Shown: positions 22,261 to 33,225 of the stretch, one piece after another
Position numbering within the stretch: the first letter of the stretch is position 1
How the letters are laid out: each line of letters starts with the position of its first letter
Origin: Nocardioides sp.
Lineage (GTDB): Bacteria > Actinomycetota > Actinomycetes > Propionibacteriales > Nocardioidaceae
DNA: 33,747 bases
Reading direction: 5' to 3'
NCBI GenBank assembly: GCA_025965125.1
Contig: JAOPXM010000237.1
Span: 1 to 33,747, forward strand
Position numbers and translations under genes: made by a program
The notes under the pieces: model-generated
Told to the model about the DNA's origin: nothing
The model's database searches: none
Seen by the model: the letters and a program-made list of their open reading frames with translations, nothing else

Positions 22261-23811
22261 TCACGGCTTGAAGACGGTCGCCTTGAAGCCGAAGCCCTTG
22301 GCCTCGTCCAGCGGCTTTCCCTGGCAGGAGTAGACAGCGTTCTGCCTCCAGCACCGGTACCGCGTCGAGGCGTTGACCAGCGTGATCGTCGCGCTCTTCA
22401 CCGACGCCCTGGAGAACGAGAACGTCACCTTCCCGTAGCCCTTGTCGGACAGCGGGATGCCCTTCCGGATCGAACCGCCCTGCGACTTCTTGATGATGAG
22501 GTACGCCGCCGGGGTGCTGCCCGCGCTGGGTGCGTTGACGGTGACGCTGGCCTGCCACCTCGAGCCCTGGAGCGAGTTGTCGGGCTTGATGACGAAGTTC
22601 CGCGAGGCCAGGTGGTCGATGTGGGTGCTCCGCTTCGCCACCCTGGCGGACTTGCCCAGGCTCCAGGTCTTGCTGATCGCCGCACTCGGCCAGTGCGATC
22701 CCTCCGCATAGGCGCCGGACGGGTTCGTGTTGGCTGCGGCGTACGACCGGAAGACGTTGGCGAAACCGGCCTTCTGGTCCAGGACCTGCTTCACCGCCTG
22801 GATCGAGTAGGCGTCCGGAGCGCCCTTGCCTGCATAGGCCTTGTTCCAGATGGACTTGACGACGCCGTTCCCGTACTTCTCGCTGAGGTACTCGAAGAAC
22901 GGCCAGTTCCCGTACTGGTTGAAGCCGTTCTGGTTGAAGATGTCGAGCGATGATCCTGGGTCCTTGACCTGGCCGTACGGCAGGTACTGGCGGTTGTCGT
23001 TGACCTCGTCCGCGAACCGCTCCTCCATCCAGGTTGCGGTGGCCTCCATGAACCAGTGGTCCTCCGTGTCGTCATAGGCGAACTGGATCGCGTGGAAGAA
23101 CTCGTGGGCGGCTGTCACCCGCAGGCTCTTGATGGGCGCCCGTCCGAATTGGGACCTGGCGAAGTCGTCGTCGAGCACGCAGTAGCCGGACGCGATGTAC
23201 TTCTCGCCCTTCACTGTGTACTCCGGAGCGCAGTAGCCGTAGAGCCCTTGGCCACCGAGCTCCTTGAGATAGACGTCGAACTTGCTGTTGCCGCCGTGGC
23301 TGCCGTCCTTGATGGGCGCGCGGTAGCCGAGCTTCTGGACCTCGGCCCGCCACACCTTGTTCATGATGCCCAGGCTCTTGTTGACCCATTTCTGGTTGGG
23401 CGGGGCATCGGCGGTGGAGCTCACCCAGTGGATGCAGAACTTCGTCGAGCACTTCTTCCTCGCGGGCACGAGGTAGCCGTCACCGTACTGGTCGGCGGGC
23501 CCGTCGGTGGGCCGTGCGAGGAGTCCTTGGGCCTTGGCCCGGTCGGCGCCGCTCAGGTCTGGCAGTGCACGGAAGAGGTCGAGCATGGCCAGCGAGGCGT
23601 CCGGCCGGGAACCCGTCGGAGCCGCGGTCGCCGTGCCGGCGAGGAGGTTCGTCACCCGGTCCAGGGCCCGAGCTGCGCGCTGCTCGACAACGCGTCCGGT
23701 CGGCCGGGCGGCAGGCGAGCCGGTGCCGTTCGTTGCGGACGAAGTCGTGGCGGGCAGAACGGTGAGTGCCGTGCTGAGTGCCACCAGAACGGTGGCGACG
23801 CTGCGGCGCAT
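22261..23811 (-). CDS. Secreted zinc metalloprotease, HExxH type (MXAN_6640-like)
   Basis: A protein of 516 aa. A signal peptide (about 1-26, MRRSVATVLVALSTALTVLP) is followed by a propeptide-like region. The catalytic motif is AAHEFFHAIQFAYDD with His236, Glu237 and His240, and EATATWMEE about 16 residues on offers Glu256 as the third zinc ligand, the gluzincin pattern. Cysteines in the mature part (C121, C126, C194, C211 and two near the C-terminus) suggest disulfides. The last ~120 residues look like a beta-rich C-terminal domain. ATG 23811 has GAGGA about 6 nt upstream; upstream in-frame starts lack one and would spoil the signal peptide. The family name is from memory and the substrate is unknown. 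Confidence 0.82.
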   Translation of the reverse strand: MRRSVATVLVALSTALTVLPATTSSATNGTGSPAARPTGRVVEQRAARALDRVTNLLAGTATAAPTGSRPDASLAMLDLFRALPDLSGADRAKAQGLLARPTDGPADQYGDGYLVPARKKCSTKFCIHWVSSTADAPPNQKWVNKSLGIMNKVWRAEVQKLGYRAPIKDGSHGGNSKFDVYLKELGGQGLYGYCAPEYTVKGEKYIASGYCVLDDDFARSQFGRAPIKSLRVTAAHEFFHAIQFAYDDTEDHWFMEATATWMEERFADEVNDNRQYLPYGQVKDPGSSLDIFNQNGFNQYGNWPFFEYLSEKYGNGVVKSIWNKAYAGKGAPDAYSIQAVKQVLDQKAGFANVFRSYAAANTNPSGAYAEGSHWPSAAISKTWSLGKSARVAKRSTHIDHLASRNFVIKPDNSLQGSRWQASVTVNAPSAGSTPAAYLIIKKSQGGSIRKGIPLSDKGYGKVTFSFSRASVKSATITLVNASTRYRCWRQNAVYSCQGKPLDEAKGFGFKATVFKP

Positions 23812-23960
23812 GTGAATCCTCATCTCGATCGTGGGGGCGCCGATGCGGCGCCGGGTGTGGACCAAGCCTGCCCCAGTGCTCGGGCCCCCCAAACCCGGCG
23901 ACCCCGGGTCGGACCTGGCCACGATTCTGGCACGCTGCCGCGTGGGGAAGGATGGGGGCA

Positions 23961-25226
23961 ATGGCCACGAGCGCGCCGATGATCACGACGGACCCAGCTG
24001 CCGATGCGGTCCGTCGTCGTGGGCTGCGGCGGATGCGCACCCTTGCGGTGTCATTGCTGTTGTTCGCCGCGCTGGTGTACGTCGTGACGATCGACCAGGA
24101 CGGGTTCCTCGGGTTCGTCAATGCGGGGGCCGAGGCGTCGATGGTGGGCGCGATCGCCGACTGGTTTGCCGTCACCGCGCTCTTCAAGCACCCCCTTGGC
24201 CTGCCCATCCCGCACACGGCACTGATCCCCAAACGCAAGGACGAGCTGGGCAAGGGACTGGAGGAGTTCGTCGGCGAGAACTTCCTGCAGGAGGACATCA
24301 TTCGTGACCGCATCTCGGCCGCGACGATCTCGCTGAGGGTCGGGCGTTGGCTGTCCGACCCGGTCAGCGCCCGGCGCGTCGTCGACGAGATCGCGGACGT
24401 GGCCGTGATCGGGCTCGGAAAGATCCGCGACGAGCATGTCGAGACCCTGGTTCTCGAGGGCCTGGTGCCGCGCTTTCGCGAGGAGCCGATCTCGCCCTTG
24501 CTGGGCGGCCTGCTGTCCGAAGCGCTCAGCGACAACCTGCATCACGGGCTGGTCGACCTCGCTCTCGACGAGCTGCATGGCTGGCTCCAGGCCAACCCCG
24601 AGACGGTGACAGAGGTCCTGGGCGAGCGCGCCCCGTGGTGGGCCCCGCCGCGGCTCAACGACCGTATTGCGGCTCGGATCCACGTCGAGCTGGTCCGGTG
24701 GGTGGGCGACATCCGCAGCGACCCCCGACATCACGCGCGGTTCGCGCTCGACTCGATGCTCGAGCAGCTCGCCCGCGACCTCCTGCACAACCCCGAGACC
24801 CAGGCCCGCACCGAGCGCCTCAAGGAGCGCCTGCTCGACCACGCCCAGGTCCTGTCGTCGAGCGTCTCGCTGTGGAACGCCCTTCGCCGCGCCCTCACCG
24901 GATCCCTGGAGGACCCGGACGGCGCGGTCCGCAAGCGGCTGCTGGCCGAGGTCTGCGCGTTCGCGGAGCGGTTGGAGGAGGACGAGGCGCTCCGGAGCCG
25001 CCTCGACACGACCGCCAGCGACGCTGCCGTGTTCGCGGTGTCGAGGTACGGCGACGAGGTCATCGCGGTCATCACGCACACGATCGAGCGGTGGGACGGC
25101 AAGGAGGCCGCGAGGCGCATCGAGCTCCACGTCGGCCGCGACCTGCAGTTCATCCGGATCAACGGCACCATCGTCGGCGGCCTGGTGGGCGTGCTGATCC
25201 ACACGACCGCGGTCATGATCCACTGA
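23961..25226 (+). CDS. DUF445 family membrane protein
   Basis: A protein of 421 aa. An N-terminal helix (TLAVSLLLFAALVYVV) and a C-terminal one (IVGGLVGVLIHTTAVMI) bracket a long, mostly alpha-helical domain. The conserved DUF445 opening is AEASMVGAIADWFAVTALFKHPLGLPIPHTALIPKRKDELGKGLEEFVGENFL, which I quote only as motif AIADWFAVTALFKHPLGLPI at about residues 58-77. The function of the family is not settled. ATG 23961 has AAGGA about 8 nt upstream; ATG 23952 is too close to that site. It is followed after 4 nt by the S4-domain gene, so the two form an operon. Confidence 0.82.
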   Translation: MATSAPMITTDPAADAVRRRGLRRMRTLAVSLLLFAALVYVVTIDQDGFLGFVNAGAEASMVGAIADWFAVTALFKHPLGLPIPHTALIPKRKDELGKGLEEFVGENFLQEDIIRDRISAATISLRVGRWLSDPVSARRVVDEIADVAVIGLGKIRDEHVETLVLEGLVPRFREEPISPLLGGLLSEALSDNLHHGLVDLALDELHGWLQANPETVTEVLGERAPWWAPPRLNDRIAARIHVELVRWVGDIRSDPRHHARFALDSMLEQLARDLLHNPETQARTERLKERLLDHAQVLSSSVSLWNALRRALTGSLEDPDGAVRKRLLAEVCAFAERLEEDEALRSRLDTTASDAAVFAVSRYGDEVIAVITHTIERWDGKEAARRIELHVGRDLQFIRINGTIVGGLVGVLIHTTAVMIH

Positions 25227-27800: not shown

Positions 27801-28802
27801 TCAGTACGCCGACTCGCTGCGCGCCGCGAGCAGTCGGCGGAACGACTCGACGCGCTCGGGGTCGGCCAGGCCTGCAGCGACGGCGACGTCCAGGCCACAC
27901 TCGGGTTCGTCCTCGCCGTGGGTGCAGCCTCGCGGGCAGTCGTCGGTCATCGCGTCGAGGTCCGGGAACGCCTCGATCTGGTCCTCCGGGCGCACGTGTG
28001 CGAGCCCGAACGACCGGATTCCGGGGGTGTCGATGATCCAGCCCTCGCCCCCGGGGAGAGCAAGCATGTAGGCCGAGGTCGACGTGTGTCGCCCGCGTCC
28101 GGTCACCGCGTTGACGACGCCGACATCGCGCTTGGCGTCTGGCACGAGCGCGTTCACGAGCGTCGACTTGCCGACGCCGCTGGATCCGACCATCACGCTG
28201 GTCTTCGCGCTGAGCCGTTCGCGGAGGGCCGCCAGGTCGCCGCCGCGCTGGGTGACGACCCAGGGCACACCGAGGGAGCGGTAGGTCGAGAGCAGCGTCT
28301 CCGGATCCGCGAGGTCGGACTTGGTCAGGCACAGGAGGGGTTGCATGCCCGCGTCGAAGGCCGCGACGAGCGCCCGGTCGATCAGCCGCGGCTGGGGCTC
28401 TGGATCGGCGAGCGCCGTCACGATCACGAGCTGCTCGGCGTTGGCGACGATGATCCGTTCGACCGGGTCGTCGTCGTCGGCGGTACGGCGCAGGGTGGTG
28501 AGCCGCTCGTGCACCTCGACGATGCGGGCCAGGGAGCCGTCCTCGCCGGAGGTGTCGCCCACGACTCGCACCCGGTCACCAACCACGACGCCCTTGCGAC
28601 CGAGTGGTCTGGCCTTCATCGCCATCACGGTCACGGCCTCGCCGGGAGGTCCGACGAGCAGGGTGAACCGCCCCCGGTCGACGGTCACGACGACCCCGTC
28701 GACGGCGTCGTCGTACGTCGGCCGGTCCTTGGTGCGGGGGCGCGTCCGGCGGCGGGGACGGTCGTAGTGCTCGATGTCCTGGTCGGAGTAGCGCCCGGTC
28801 AC
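27801..28802 (-). CDS. rsgA: Ribosome small-subunit GTPase RsgA
   Basis: A protein of 333 aa. The N-terminal OB-fold (about 30-100) is followed by a circularly permuted GTPase: G4 (TKSD) comes before G1 (GSSGVGKST) and G3 (DTPG), the mark of RsgA/YjeQ. The C-terminal zinc-binding segment has [17 protein letters not shown], with the Cys/His ligands. It acts late in 30S subunit maturation. The start GTG 28802 overlaps the aroA stop (GTGA), so it is translationally coupled to aroA; the reading frame continues upstream inside aroA without meaning. Confidence 0.93.
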
Positions 28803-30070
28803 AGCAGACCCGACCAGAACTCTGCGAAGTCGGGGAACGTCTTGGCGGTCGTCGCGATGTCCTCGACCAGGATCCCGTCGACGGCTGCTCCGACGATGAC
28901 ACCGGCATGCGCCATCCGGTGGTCGGCGTAGGTGTGGAAGACGCCGGCGGTCAGCTGTGCCGGGCGCAGGCTCAGCCCGTCGGGGTGCTCGGTGACGTCG
29001 GCGCCGAGACCGCCGAGCTCGGTCGCGAGCGCCGCCAGCCGATCGGTCTCGTGGCCGCGGATGTGCGCGATCCCGCGCAGGTGCGAGGGCGAGGACGCCA
29101 GGGCGCACAGGGCGGCGACCGCGGGCGCGAGCTCGCCCGCGTCATGCAGGTCGACGTCGATCCCCTCGAGGACGTCCGGTCCGACCACCCTCAGGCCATC
29201 GTCCACGAACTCCACGGAGCAGCCCATCCGGGTGAGGATCTCGCGCAGCGCATCGCCCGCCTGGGTGGTGGCCCGCGGCCAGTCCCGCACCGTCACCGAT
29301 CCGCCCGACAGGGCGGCAAGCGCGAGGAACGGCGCGGCGTTGGAGAGGTCCGGCTCGATGAGGTGATCGACCGGCTTCACCGGCCCGGGTGCGACGGCCC
29401 AGCGGTTCGCCTCCGCGTCGTCGACCTCGATCCCGTGCTCGCGCAGCATGGCCACCGTCATGTCGATGTGGGGGAGTGATGGCACGGGCTTGCCGTCGTG
29501 GCGCACGTCCACGCCGAGCTCGTAACGAGCCCCGGCGAGCAGCAGCGCGGAGATGAACTGGGAGGACGCGGACGCGTCGACGACCACGGTGCCGCCGGTG
29601 ACCCGGCCCGCGCCCCGCACCGAGAAGGGCAGCGCCGCGCGGCCCCCGTCGTCGATCGTCACCCCGAGCGACCGCAGCGCATCGAGCACCCCACCGATCG
29701 GCCTGTTGCGCATGTGCGGGTCCCCGTCGAACTCGACCGTCCCGGTCGAGAGCCCTGCGACCGGCGGGACGAAGCGCATCACGGTCCCGGCCAGGCCACA
29801 GTCGATGGCGGCATCGGCACGGAACTCGCCGGGCGTCACGACCCAGTCGTCACTCGTGGTGTCGACCTGCGACCCGAGCGAGGTCAGGGCCGTCGCCATC
29901 AGGGAGGTGTCGCGCGAGCGCAGGGCACGGCGTACGACGGAAGGGCCGTCGGCGATCGCGGCCAGCACCAGTGCGCGGTTGGTCAGCGACTTGCTGCCCG
30001 GCAGTGACACGACCGCATCGACGGGATGCTCCGCGCGCGGCGCGGGCCACGGATCGGCAGGTGAAGTCAC
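28799..30070 (-). CDS. aroA: 3-phosphoshikimate 1-carboxyvinyltransferase (EPSP synthase)
   Basis: A protein of 423 aa, complete. The N-terminal motif [16 protein letters not shown] holds the substrate lysine. [18 protein letters not shown] contains the conserved Arg-Pro pair; [13 protein letters not shown] and the late [12 protein letters not shown] are the other family motifs. It transfers enolpyruvyl from PEP to shikimate 3-phosphate in aromatic amino-acid synthesis. The start GTG 30070 stands 6 nt after TAGTCT and appears leaderless. It is followed by rsgA with a 4-nt overlap. The DoxX gene ends 20 nt upstream on the same strand. Confidence 0.95.
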
Positions 30071-30688: not shown

Positions 30689-32329
30689 TCAGGAGTGCAG
30701 GTCGACGGTCGTGCTGTTGTTGCTCGGGTCGGGATCGGTGACGTCACCGACGTACGACACCGTGAAGGTCAGGGTCGCCGTCTGGCCGGGCACGGGGACG
30801 GCCAGGAACTGCAGCGTCGCCGGTGCCTGGACCTGGCACCGCGCGGTGTCGAGCTGGAGCCCGAGGCATCGGGGATCGAGGGTCAGCGTGATCGTCGGAG
30901 AGCTCGACGTGACCGTCACGACGGCATCCTCACCGGCCGGCAACCCCTGGACGTCGACGTCGACGCTCCACGCCAGGCCCGCGACCGGCGTCGCGCGAGC
31001 GACCACCGCCAGGTCGTGCTCGGGATCGCCCGTAGGCGAGGGATCCGTGGACGGCTCGTCGGTCGGGATGTCGGTCGGTTCCTCGGTCGCGACGTCCGTC
31101 GGCAGATCGGTCGGAGTCTCGCTGGGCACGTCCGTCGGCTCGTCGCTCGGGGTGTCGGTGGTGACCCCGAGCGGCACGGTGACGAACGGCGTACCCCCGC
31201 CGGACCTGGGCACCGAGTCTGCCGTCGGCCTCCCCGCGGTTCCTCCGTGATGGCCGTGTCCGTTGCGCCGACCCGGGCCAGCGCCGCCGCCCGCCCCAGG
31301 GCCCGCCGTGTTGCCTCCCGCGACCGGCGCGGACGCCACAGCCGCGGGTCGGTCGGCGTTCGGCTTGTTGTCCGCCGGGGTGGCCACGATGACGACGCCG
31401 GTCGCCACGGCGGCCGTGGCCGCAACCCCCGCGACAGCCGAGACGGGGGCGTTGGCCAGCGCCAGGTCCCGGGCGCGTCCCGCGAGGAAGAGCGCTCCAG
31501 CCTTGATGGCCGCGAGGGCCCCCAGCCCACCCCCGGAGCCGAGGTACGCGGCGGCGGAGCCTCCGAGGATGAGCGGCGCAAGGATGCCACGCAGGTTCGA
31601 GTTGACCTCGGTGAGCTCGAGGTAGACCCCCATGCAGCGACGGCACTCGCCGAGGTGGCCCTGGACCCTCGCGCCCTCGCGACGGGACATGCCGCCACGG
31701 ATGTACGCCCCGAGATTCTGCTGGGTGCCGATGCAGGCGTCGTCCTCCGCGTCCTGGGCGTGCATGGACACGAACGCCTGGCGCAGCCCCTCGCGGGCGC
31801 GGTAGGCGAGCGCGGCCACAGAGTTCGCGGTCATGCCGAGCAGCACCCCGACATCTGCGGGCTTCTGACCCTCGACCTCGGTGTGCCACAGGACCATCTG
31901 CCATCGCTCGGGCAGGGACGCGAACGCGCGGGCGGCCGCGCCGCTCTCGAAGCCCTCGACGGCGGTGTCGCGGAATGGCACCCCGGGGTCGTACGGCGTG
32001 AGGTCGTCGGTCGTCCTCAGCCGGGAGCCGGCCCGGAGCTTGTCCACATGGAGTCGACGCACCGACGTGAGCAGGTAGGCGCGAAAGGCCAGGTCGGGTC
32101 CGCCGCCCCTCTGCAGGACAGCGAGCACCTTGGCAAAGGCATCCGAGACGAGGTCGTCGGCGTCGCCCGCGGAGACGAGCTGGCGGGCCAGACGACGTGC
32201 CGATCCCACATGGCGTTCGAACAGCTCGCCGTAGGCCTCCAGGTCGCCGGCGCGGACGGCCGAGATCAGCTCGGCGTCACCGGGACCCTCGGTCCTCGGC
32301 TCCCCGGTACCGTGCGCGAGCTGGCTCAC
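30689..32329 (-). CDS. Membrane-anchored ECF sigma factor fused to zinc-finger anti-sigma motif and extracytoplasmic domain
   Basis: A protein of 546 aa. Residues about 18-100 are sigma region 2 (AYGELFERHVGSARRLARQL, DADDLVSDAFAKVL) and about 132-188 are region 4 (SLPERWQMVLWHTEVEGQKPADVGVLLGMTANSV). Residues 195-240 look like a zinc-finger anti-sigma segment: C199 and H225-x3-C229-x2-C232. One clear TM helix lies near 295-317. Beyond it come a Gly/Pro-rich part, a Thr/Pro/Asp/Glu repeat stretch (391-432) and a beta-rich DUF11/CARDB-like domain (439-546) ending DPDPSNNSTTVDL, with C488 and C498 able to form a disulfide. ECF sigma factors with fused C-terminal extensions are known in actinobacteria. 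Sensing outside could release or expose the sigma part. The start is GTG 32329, without a clear ribosome binding site. Confidence 0.85.
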   Translation of the reverse strand: MSQLAHGTGEPRTEGPGDAELISAVRAGDLEAYGELFERHVGSARRLARQLVSAGDADDLVSDAFAKVLAVLQRGGGPDLAFRAYLLTSVRRLHVDKLRAGSRLRTTDDLTPYDPGVPFRDTAVEGFESGAAARAFASLPERWQMVLWHTEVEGQKPADVGVLLGMTANSVAALAYRAREGLRQAFVSMHAQDAEDDACIGTQQNLGAYIRGGMSRREGARVQGHLGECRRCMGVYLELTEVNSNLRGILAPLILGGSAAAYLGSGGGLGALAAIKAGALFLAGRARDLALANAPVSAVAGVAATAAVATGVVIVATPADNKPNADRPAAVASAPVAGGNTAGPGAGGGAGPGRRNGHGHHGGTAGRPTADSVPRSGGGTPFVTVPLGVTTDTPSDEPTDVPSETPTDLPTDVATEEPTDIPTDEPSTDPSPTGDPEHDLAVVARATPVAGLAWSVDVDVQGLPAGEDAVVTVTSSSPTITLTLDPRCLGLQLDTARCQVQAPATLQFLAVPVPGQTATLTFTVSYVGDVTDPDPSNNSTTVDLHS

Positions 32330-32355
32330 AGAGGTTCAACGACCGACCGGGCAAA

Positions 32356-32404
32356 ACATGACGGGGTGCCTGTCGCAGAAAAGTTTGTGGAACCCGCGTC
32401 ATGT
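32356..32404. promoter_or_regulatory. 8-bp inverted repeat upstream of the sigma gene
   Basis: ACATGACG (32356-32363) and CGTCATGT (32397-32404) are perfect complements 33 nt apart, in the gap between the sigma gene and the GGDEF-like gene. Both arms contain CGTC, a sequence often seen in ECF -10 elements. A GGAACC at 32389-32394 is -35-like on the plus strand. The evidence is weak. Confidence 0.25.
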
Positions 32405-32553
32405 GTTGCCGGGTCGCCCGTTTCAGTGTCGTAAGGCGGTCGTGGGGAGCGCCGTACGGGCAGGAACCGAAAAGTTGTATGGCGACAAGGTGTGGGGGCG
32501 ACGTGGGGATCTTCGCAACGCGTGCGAAGCGCTCCGCAGCCGCACCCGAGGCG

Positions 32554-33225
32554 ATGGATGACCTGACCGAGGAGCTGCGCGCGGCCTTGCCGCCGTACTT
32601 CGAGGCCGTGGGGGAGGCCATTGCCTCGGGGGCGGCACCGCTCGCAGCCTGTGGGGAGGCAGGCCGCGAGCTGGCCCGGGCTGGCGTGGCGTTGGGGGAC
32701 GCGCTCGACAGCCTGAGGACAACAGTCTGGATGGTCCGGGGGAGGGAGCCGGACCATCCAGAAGTCCGTTCGCTGTCGGTCGGGTGGAGCGAGGCGACGC
32801 TGGGCTACCTGCACCGGCTCTCCTGCGTGGATCCGCTCACCGGCCTGTCGACCCAGGCGCACGTGCGCGGCCGACTGACGGAGATCTTCCGCGACCCGAC
32901 CCTGTCCACCGGCGGGGCCCGACATCATCACGCGCTGGTGGTCATCGAGGCGCTGGACGACGGTGGCACGCTGGACCACGCGGCACGGATGGCCAGGCTC
33001 GGCGAGATCGGCCGCGCCGTGTTTGCCGGCGCGGAGACGATCGGACGCGTCGGGCCACGCCGCATTGTCGTGATCGCGACGCGCGACGATCGTCTGGCCC
33101 GCCGGGTAGCCGTGCTGCGGCGGATGCTCGACCAGGCGCATCCCGAGGCCCGGCTGTGGATCGAGGGGCTGCCGGACTCCGACTCGGCGGCAGGTGCGCT
33201 GCTCGAGGAGCTCGCGCGGCTCTGA
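32554..33225 (+). CDS. Degenerate GGDEF-domain protein
   Basis: A protein of 223 aa from ATG 32554. An N-terminal helical part (1-90) leads to DPLTGLSTQAHVRGRL (93-108), the unmistakable start of a GGDEF domain. At the place of the active site, however, the sequence is RVGPRRIVVIA (165-175): GPRRI instead of GGDEF, and the metal and base-binding residues of diguanylate cyclases are not visible. It should not make cyclic di-GMP; it may be a scaffold or nucleotide receptor. The frame is open to 32401 and ATG 32479 is an alternative start, but the added residues do not look coding. It is divergent from the fused sigma factor. Confidence 0.72.
   Translation: MDDLTEELRAALPPYFEAVGEAIASGAAPLAACGEAGRELARAGVALGDALDSLRTTVWMVRGREPDHPEVRSLSVGWSEATLGYLHRLSCVDPLTGLSTQAHVRGRLTEIFRDPTLSTGGARHHHALVVIEALDDGGTLDHAARMARLGEIGRAVFAGAETIGRVGPRRIVVIATRDDRLARRVAVLRRMLDQAHPEARLWIEGLPDSDSAAGALLEELARL
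32726..32762. repeat. Perfect 14-bp inverted repeat inside the GGDEF-like coding region
   Basis: TCTGGATGGTCCGG (32726-32739) and its exact complement (32749-32762) flank a 9-nt purine-only loop. It lies in codons for residues around 58-70, between the helical part and the GGDEF-like part. As RNA this is a very stable hairpin. It has no T-tract. Confidence 0.7.

Follow-up and report, generated by a model that had tools for sequence, protein, structure and literature searches.

The window, meaning the whole analysed stretch of 33,747 nucleotides from a Nocardioides sp., carries on its minus strand a gene that fuses an ECF sigma factor, a zinc anti-sigma domain, a transmembrane helix and an outside domain into one chain. 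It is flanked by aroA and by a divergently oriented gene, with a predicted promoter for each member of the divergent pair:

28799..30070, minus strand: aroA (EPSP synthase), the conserved downstream neighbour (Pfam; synteny)
30689..32329, minus strand: fused ECF sigma/anti-sigma/transmembrane/ectodomain gene (546 aa, from a GTG at 32329 to the stop at 30689)
32021..32224, minus strand: sigma-70 region 2, residues 36-103 (Pfam Sigma70_r2, 34 bits, cutoff 24)
31790..31933, minus strand: sigma-70 region 4, residues 133-180 (Pfam Sigma70_r4_2, 24.6 bits, just below its cutoff of 25.7)
31634..31735, minus strand: zinc anti-sigma finger, C199-x25-H225-x3-C229-x2-C232 (zf-HC2; ligands invariant)
31535..31630, minus strand: hydrophobic helix following the finger, conserved, residues 234-265 (alignments, AlphaFold2)
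31382..31441, minus strand: transmembrane helix, residues 297-316 (hydropathy; dN/dS 0.085)
31034..31159, minus strand: Pro/Thr/Asp/Glu spacer, residues 391-432 (PT repeat, sequence)
30692..31018, minus strand: ectodomain, residues 438-546, a predicted beta sandwich with Cys488/Cys498 (AlphaFold2, Foldseek)
32335..32363, minus strand: ECF-type promoter predicted for the fused gene, CGTCAT-N16-CGTT, directly ahead of the GTG (motif counts)
32397..32425, plus strand: ECF-type promoter predicted for the divergent gene, CGTCAT-N16-CGTT (motif counts)
32554..33225, plus strand: divergent partner gene, a degenerate GGDEF-fold protein (synteny, model; start codon uncertain)

G+C content is 72-73% and a 777-aa frame runs opposite the fused gene, so that an open frame alone carries little weight here. 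A preliminary description of this DNA had read the sigma through transmembrane parts as one continuous frame, and this is borne out by a single unbroken ORF with which both homology and codon-level selection agree. Measured against the nearest relative (L034, a Nocardioides metagenome contig, 79% identical), dN/dS is 0.26 overall and below 1 in every segment tested: 0.08-0.14 across sigma, finger and transmembrane helix (0.08 in the region 4 part, 0.085 in the helix itself), 0.34 for residues 248-296, 0.47 for residues 317-390, 0.52 in the spacer and 0.32 in the ectodomain. The whole fused protein is under purifying selection. The antisense frame was considered as a gene and set aside: its apparent dN/dS of 0.33 is that expected from shared third codon positions, and homology favours the sense frame.

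Regions 2 and 4 fall within the sigma-70 family, and the protein is identified as an ECF sigma factor (sigma-70 group 4) by the NCBIfam model TIGR02937 (sigma70-ECF; 48.3 bits, above its cutoff of 42.9), by Pfam region 2 and by its best PDB matches, which are ECF sigmas with SigE of M. tuberculosis first by sequence. Models for both regions and for zf-HC2 match all 71 proteins scanned (E<=0.01), and a core match at E<=1e-20 is found in 105 of 296 genomes drawn from the taxonomic class, some of these being separate sigmas. The earlier proposal of a zinc-finger anti-sigma segment, made from its C/H-x3-C-x2-C pattern, gains from a zf-HC2 match at residues 202-232 (28.8 bits, cutoff 22.2) and from the invariance of C199, H225, C229 and C232 in both the 27-row and the 71-row alignments; C199 is presumably the fourth zinc ligand. 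Hx3Cx2C, formed here by H225, C229 and C232, is the motif of the class I zinc anti-sigma domain in the available part of PMC7406223, which also describes, at the matching place, a helix 4 that covers sigma region 2. By this analogy residues 234-265, in which P252, L255, G256 and Y262 are invariant, are probably anti-sigma helix 4 and would likely act as part of the brake.

The strongest hydrophobic window lies at about residues 297-316 (KD 2.2), and the Arg-bearing GRARD ahead of it (residues 284-288; GRxRD-like in most Nocardioides rows of the 27-row alignment) would fit an orientation with the N side cytoplasmic and the C side outside. Between finger and membrane helix is a weaker hydrophobic stretch (about residues 246-285, KD 1.3-1.4) that the preliminary description had passed over. 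Pfam, hydropathy and selection together uphold its picture of an ECF sigma and zinc anti-sigma domain tethered to the membrane and carrying a stalked outside part; the spacer and the Cys488/Cys498 pair are likewise present as reported, with a PT repeat model reaching 16.9 bits at residues 397-431, under its cutoff of 26.2 (Pfam).

Structure prediction of the C-terminal part, which had been proposed as a check, gives an eight-stranded sandwich for residues 438-546 (AlphaFold2, pLDDT about 92). Foldseek matches it to CARDB structure 3idu (E 1.2e-3 and 2.0e-3, target-normalised TM-scores 0.54 and 0.56) and to the adhesin CLIPPER domain 9ifr (E 4.0e-5, TM-score 0.50), and the ectodomain is predicted to be a CARDB/DUF11-like beta sandwich in the sense of fold resemblance only. 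Because the stalk and transmembrane segment are modelled at pLDDT below 50, with an overall pTM of 0.39, no arrangement of the domains is claimed. The ectodomain of the window protein has no Pfam match; among 71 orthologues (E<=0.01), DUF11 is matched in four, CARDB in one, cadherin/Big_9 models in seven and ricin-B lectin in two. A pair of cysteines 4-18 residues apart lies within the last 115 residues of 59 of the 71. Seven others (L041, L046, L063, L072, L073, L078 and L080; 451-487 aa) end 137-181 residues past the transmembrane helix with no ectodomain and no Cys after the helix, and an eighth, L091, has 255 residues after the helix and no Cys. Orthologues L040 and L092, at 1702 and 1769 aa, are far longer than the rest.

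The core of sigma factor, anti-sigma domain and membrane helix is thus constant and the outside tip variable. The disulfide-capable beta domain of the preliminary description stands, whereas its role as one specific sensor domain is weakened: a fixed ligand sensor is disfavoured because seven of 71 orthologues have no tip, and it is weakened further by those that carry unrelated cadherin-like or ricin-B domains.

That fused ECFs form a known class had been recognised, and the sections available of PMC8999054 and PMC10766802 describe ECF48, ECF52 and ECF53 as fusions with a zinc finger, transmembrane segment and outside domain. The definition in the former, by which region 4 is followed within a single chain by a zinc anti-sigma domain and one or two transmembrane helices, describes the architecture of the window protein, which belongs to this class. 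Its likeness to ECF48 and ECF53, compared by description, is that they too are predicted to be fused to a zinc anti-sigma domain bound to the membrane (PMC8999054, in part). SCO4117 of Streptomyces coelicolor, the first characterised member of ECF52 and the sole characterised fused membrane ECF in the literature we found, likewise combines sigma factor, zf-HC2, transmembrane helix, a Pro-rich extension and an outside domain in a single polypeptide; its outside domain, however, is carbohydrate-binding (smart00776), and its gene neighbour and proposed promoter motif differ from those of the window locus (PMC5826349, as far as available). The window protein does not carry the C-terminal carbohydrate-binding NPCBM domain of ECF52: NPCBM was found neither there nor among the 20 families in 71 members (E<=0.01), and was found in three of eight other proteins scanned. 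In a quick tree with long branches, from which SCO4117 itself was left out, six NPCBM-type proteins (three Pfam-confirmed, three assigned by eye) form a clade (SH-aLRT 100), and the window protein falls in a separate clade (SH-aLRT 97) that also holds L163, labelled 'other', and Kribbella-like rows. SCO4117 would be expected in the NPCBM clade, apart from the Nocardioidaceae, aroA-linked clade of the window protein. A further comparison is IutY of Pseudomonas putida (ECF243), also a sigma fused to a membrane anti-sigma domain, which Prc and RseP release (PMC8999054, in part); IutY serves iron-siderophore cell-surface signalling, and no such partner is seen at the window locus.

The names of the nearest relatives put the window in Nocardioides or close to it, and gene order around the fused gene is conserved. 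Among the best 80 named relatives, several misses being contig ends, aroA is present at 65 loci, rsgA at 61 and doxX at 53, so the adjacency to aroA pointed out earlier is real. In mycobacteria a separate sigH/rshA pair is found beside aroA. A homologue of the divergent gene, which like the shared promoter element had escaped the preliminary description, lies beside the sigma gene at 77 of the 80 loci, divergent in 75 and co-oriented in two. In the window its mechanically called ORF starts at 32401, within the promoter element. The protein has a helical N-terminal part and a degenerate GGDEF fold: its model (pLDDT 95.1) matches GGDEF structures with a best E of 3.4e-4 (FimX at a TM-score of 0.55 by target), and a profile of 55 orthologues finds the FimX GGDEF domain weakly (E 0.012). 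No Pfam or NCBIfam curated family matches the window copy, and Pfam GGDEF is matched in five of the 55 orthologues at E<=1. Because the catalytic GGDEF motif, as read from the sequence, is replaced by GP-R-[RV], the protein is probably not a cyclase. Elsewhere in the window, 22261-23961 on the minus strand encodes a putative metalloprotease of the MXAN_6640 family (NF045524; 369.7 bits, cutoff 140).

The region upstream of the sigma gene contains a prominent 10-base word, CATGACGCGG. As the single-motif operator of a wider regulon it was rejected, with 14 copies in the genome against 22 for the backward control, and a bipartite element replaced it. Across 80 promoter regions (the window and 79 of the best 80 named loci) the 8-mer CATGACGC occurs in 67, against at most 10 in shuffles; aligning 67 regions by GCGTCATG alone reveals an unselected CGT 15 bases on, with C, G and T in 65, 66 and 63 of them. 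Written as CGTCA-N17-CGT[CT], the element is found on the divergent strand in 71 of the 80 regions and on the sigma strand in 26, at one and the same spacing in a spacer scan, with a shuffle mean of 0.35 and maximum of 2. The exact sigma-side form is absent from 54 of the 80 loci, which counts against the circuit considered below. A leaderless sigma-gene mRNA is probable, since the CGT begins 12 or 13 nt ahead of the start codon in 19 of the 26 sigma-side cases. The strict form CGTCAT-N16-CGTYNNA has four sites in the window's genome, two of them at the sigma locus (backward control, one). We found no description of this promoter or its regulon in the open-licence literature; the ECF classification papers Huang 2015, Pinto and Mascher 2016 and Casas-Pastor 2021 may contain predicted motifs for the groups concerned.

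A count of the strict element over 40 Nocardioides genomes gives 98 sites (backward control, 10), much of which is background, because spacers slid to 13 and 19 give 69 and 67; that the excess is so modest also counts against the circuit. Behind the 60 sites examined for downstream genes, a secreted lytic transglycosylase (SLT_2) recurs in five genomes. Association with the fused sigma was counted in 118 genomes, inspecting up to 600 nt upstream of each transglycosylase match and calling the transglycosylase at E<=1e-90 (109 genomes) and the sigma at E<=1e-70 (64 genomes); genomes called 'without' may carry more distant fused paralogues. The element stands before the transglycosylase, on the same strand, in 29 of 58 sigma-bearing Nocardioides genomes and in none of the 51 that lack the sigma (Fisher 1.3e-10); leaving out the five discovery genomes gives 24 of 53 against 0 of 51 (Fisher 3.4e-9). 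Same-strand control spacings of 11-23 yield 0-1 genomes with and 0-3 without the sigma. The window's own genome carries the element at its transglycosylase, CGTCATGACCAGCCGCAATTCCCGTCACC, and the neighbour-gene and transglycosylase elements agree beyond the search pattern, as tcnGCGTCATG...CGTCTCA. It counts against the circuit that the other half of the sigma-bearing genomes (29 of 58) have no element there, and that opposite-strand matches before the transglycosylase appear in 11 genomes with and 9 without the sigma at gap 15, and in 7 and 1 at gap 18.

In a tree of 69 transglycosylases, of which 27 go with both element and sigma, 10 with the sigma alone and 32 with no sigma, presence of the sigma requires a minimum of 13 changes and that of the element a minimum of 10. 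Eight well-supported independent pairs differ in the sigma; the element is concordant in about four, discordant in none and uninformative in four (p 0.125). This phylogeny-controlled test agrees in direction with the co-occurrence, is underpowered and is not significant; with only about four concordant independent pairs, the Fisher values above are to be read as not corrected for phylogeny.

Taking the computed anatomy, selection, synteny, promoter element and co-occurrence together, we think it probable, with appreciable doubt, that the locus encodes a one-protein envelope-signalling sigma factor with its own brake, membrane helix and stalk, that acts on its own gene, on the divergent gene and on the transglycosylase. 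Together with the helix that follows it, the zinc anti-sigma domain would hold sigma regions 2 and 4 inactive at the membrane, whilst the single transmembrane helix would bear a disordered Pro/Thr stalk, usually with a beta-sandwich tip, on the outside. An envelope signal would set off stepwise proteolysis, beginning outside and ending at the transmembrane helix, and the freed sigma part would transcribe from promoters of the predicted type GCGTCATg-N15-CGTYTCA, which we infer it reads. The conserved start signals suggest that the sigma turns on itself, its neighbour and a wall-cutting enzyme: its own gene and the degenerate-GGDEF gene would be the core targets, joined by the transglycosylase in half of the examined Nocardioides genomes having both genes. 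This circuit agrees with sigmaE of S. coelicolor, which governs an envelope regulon and whose listed promoters have CGTC-like -10 elements (PMC6767563, in the part available), and is opposed by the different motif proposed for SCO4117.

Release by proteolysis is the most likely route by analogy with relatives, having been proposed for the fused class and for SCO4117 and shown for IutY (accessible parts of PMC8999054 and PMC5826349). The tethered sigma might instead act uncleaved, a conformational change or loss of zinc in the finger letting it join RNA polymerase in place. The fully conserved zinc ligands would suit such a switch, as would ECF41 and ECF238, which switch by conformation; as PMC8999054 describes them in the available text, however, these do so through a soluble C-terminal extension, and a sigma-only mutant of SCO4117 showed a milder phenotype than the deletion and had its own expression activated (PMC5826349, in part), leaving in-place action rather improbable.

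The identity of the reader can also be questioned, since the window's genome encodes other ECF sigmas (L002-L004), one lying about 10 kb from the transglycosylase (contig C108), and a separate sigma of, for example, the sigmaE type could read the element and control the transglycosylase as well as the fused sigma and the gene beside it. Autoregulation is usual among ECF sigmas, which argues against this, as does the finding of the transglycosylase element solely in genomes that have the fused sigma (29 of 58, and none of the 51 lacking it). SigmaE of S. coelicolor is not a fusion. In the available portion of PMC6767563 it shares the CGTC-like -10, a point in favour of such a reader, and envelope targets that include a transglycosylase/LysM protein; its listed -35 parts contain AAC, not GCGTCATG. 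We regard a separate reader as unlikely. Less likely again is that the element is no promoter at all: facing TGACGC and GCGTCA half-sites in the intergenic region could form the operator of a repressor or activator, yet the element is asymmetric and bipartite, keeps one fixed spacing and runs in the direction of each gene, and its second half lies 12-13 nt before the start codon in 19 of the 26 cases on the sigma side.

Returning to the self-encoded, envelope-signalling sigma, what is new here is the ECF-type promoter element and the predicted small circuit, the fused class itself being already known. Promoter and signal are unsettled for SCO4117, and the present locus offers a precise predicted promoter, a short list of predicted targets and a contrast between sigma-bearing and sigma-free genomes. 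This makes it directly testable how a sigma is activated when its own polypeptide anchors it in the membrane. A variable or absent outside domain over a constant core also raises the question of whether the stalk itself senses. At this one fixed locus, orthologues exchange the tip or do without it; it is conceivable, if speculative and on balance doubtful, that the fused sigma is a self-contained wall gauge, in which stalk and membrane helix, rather than a ligand-binding tip, would report the state of the wall, the loop being closed through the wall-cutting enzyme, more sigma and a degenerate-GGDEF modulator. Should the predicted circuit itself be right, one protein would couple the wall to a wall hydrolase with no separate anti-sigma factor.

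Some smaller observations concern the same genome and element. On contig C155, L003 (1480-2855, plus strand) holds another ECF sigma; the next protein, encoded separately, has a hydrophobic segment and a spacer rich in Ser, Asp and Pro, so that the two may be an unfused pair built along similar lines. Of the strict sites elsewhere in the window's genome, that on C181 lies partly over the end of a predicted permease gene and has the look of a chance match. On C40 the element precedes a HicB-like gene and then a beta-repeat gene (DUF4097-like, by eye; L146 / L245); this operon was not confirmed as a target, a homologue of its first gene being present in none of the other 59 fetched regions. A STAS-domain (anti-anti-sigma-like) protein lies behind the element in two Nocardioides genomes (L199, 1155-1460, plus strand; L228, 804-1109, minus strand) and is a possible further target. 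An ABC ATPase also lies behind element sites, two confirmed by like sequences and a third by like sites, and a GDSL-like gene lies downstream of another. In one genome, an RbpA-like RNA-polymerase-binding protein (by eye; L226, 1102-1488, plus strand) lies 46 nt after the start of the -10 part of an element.
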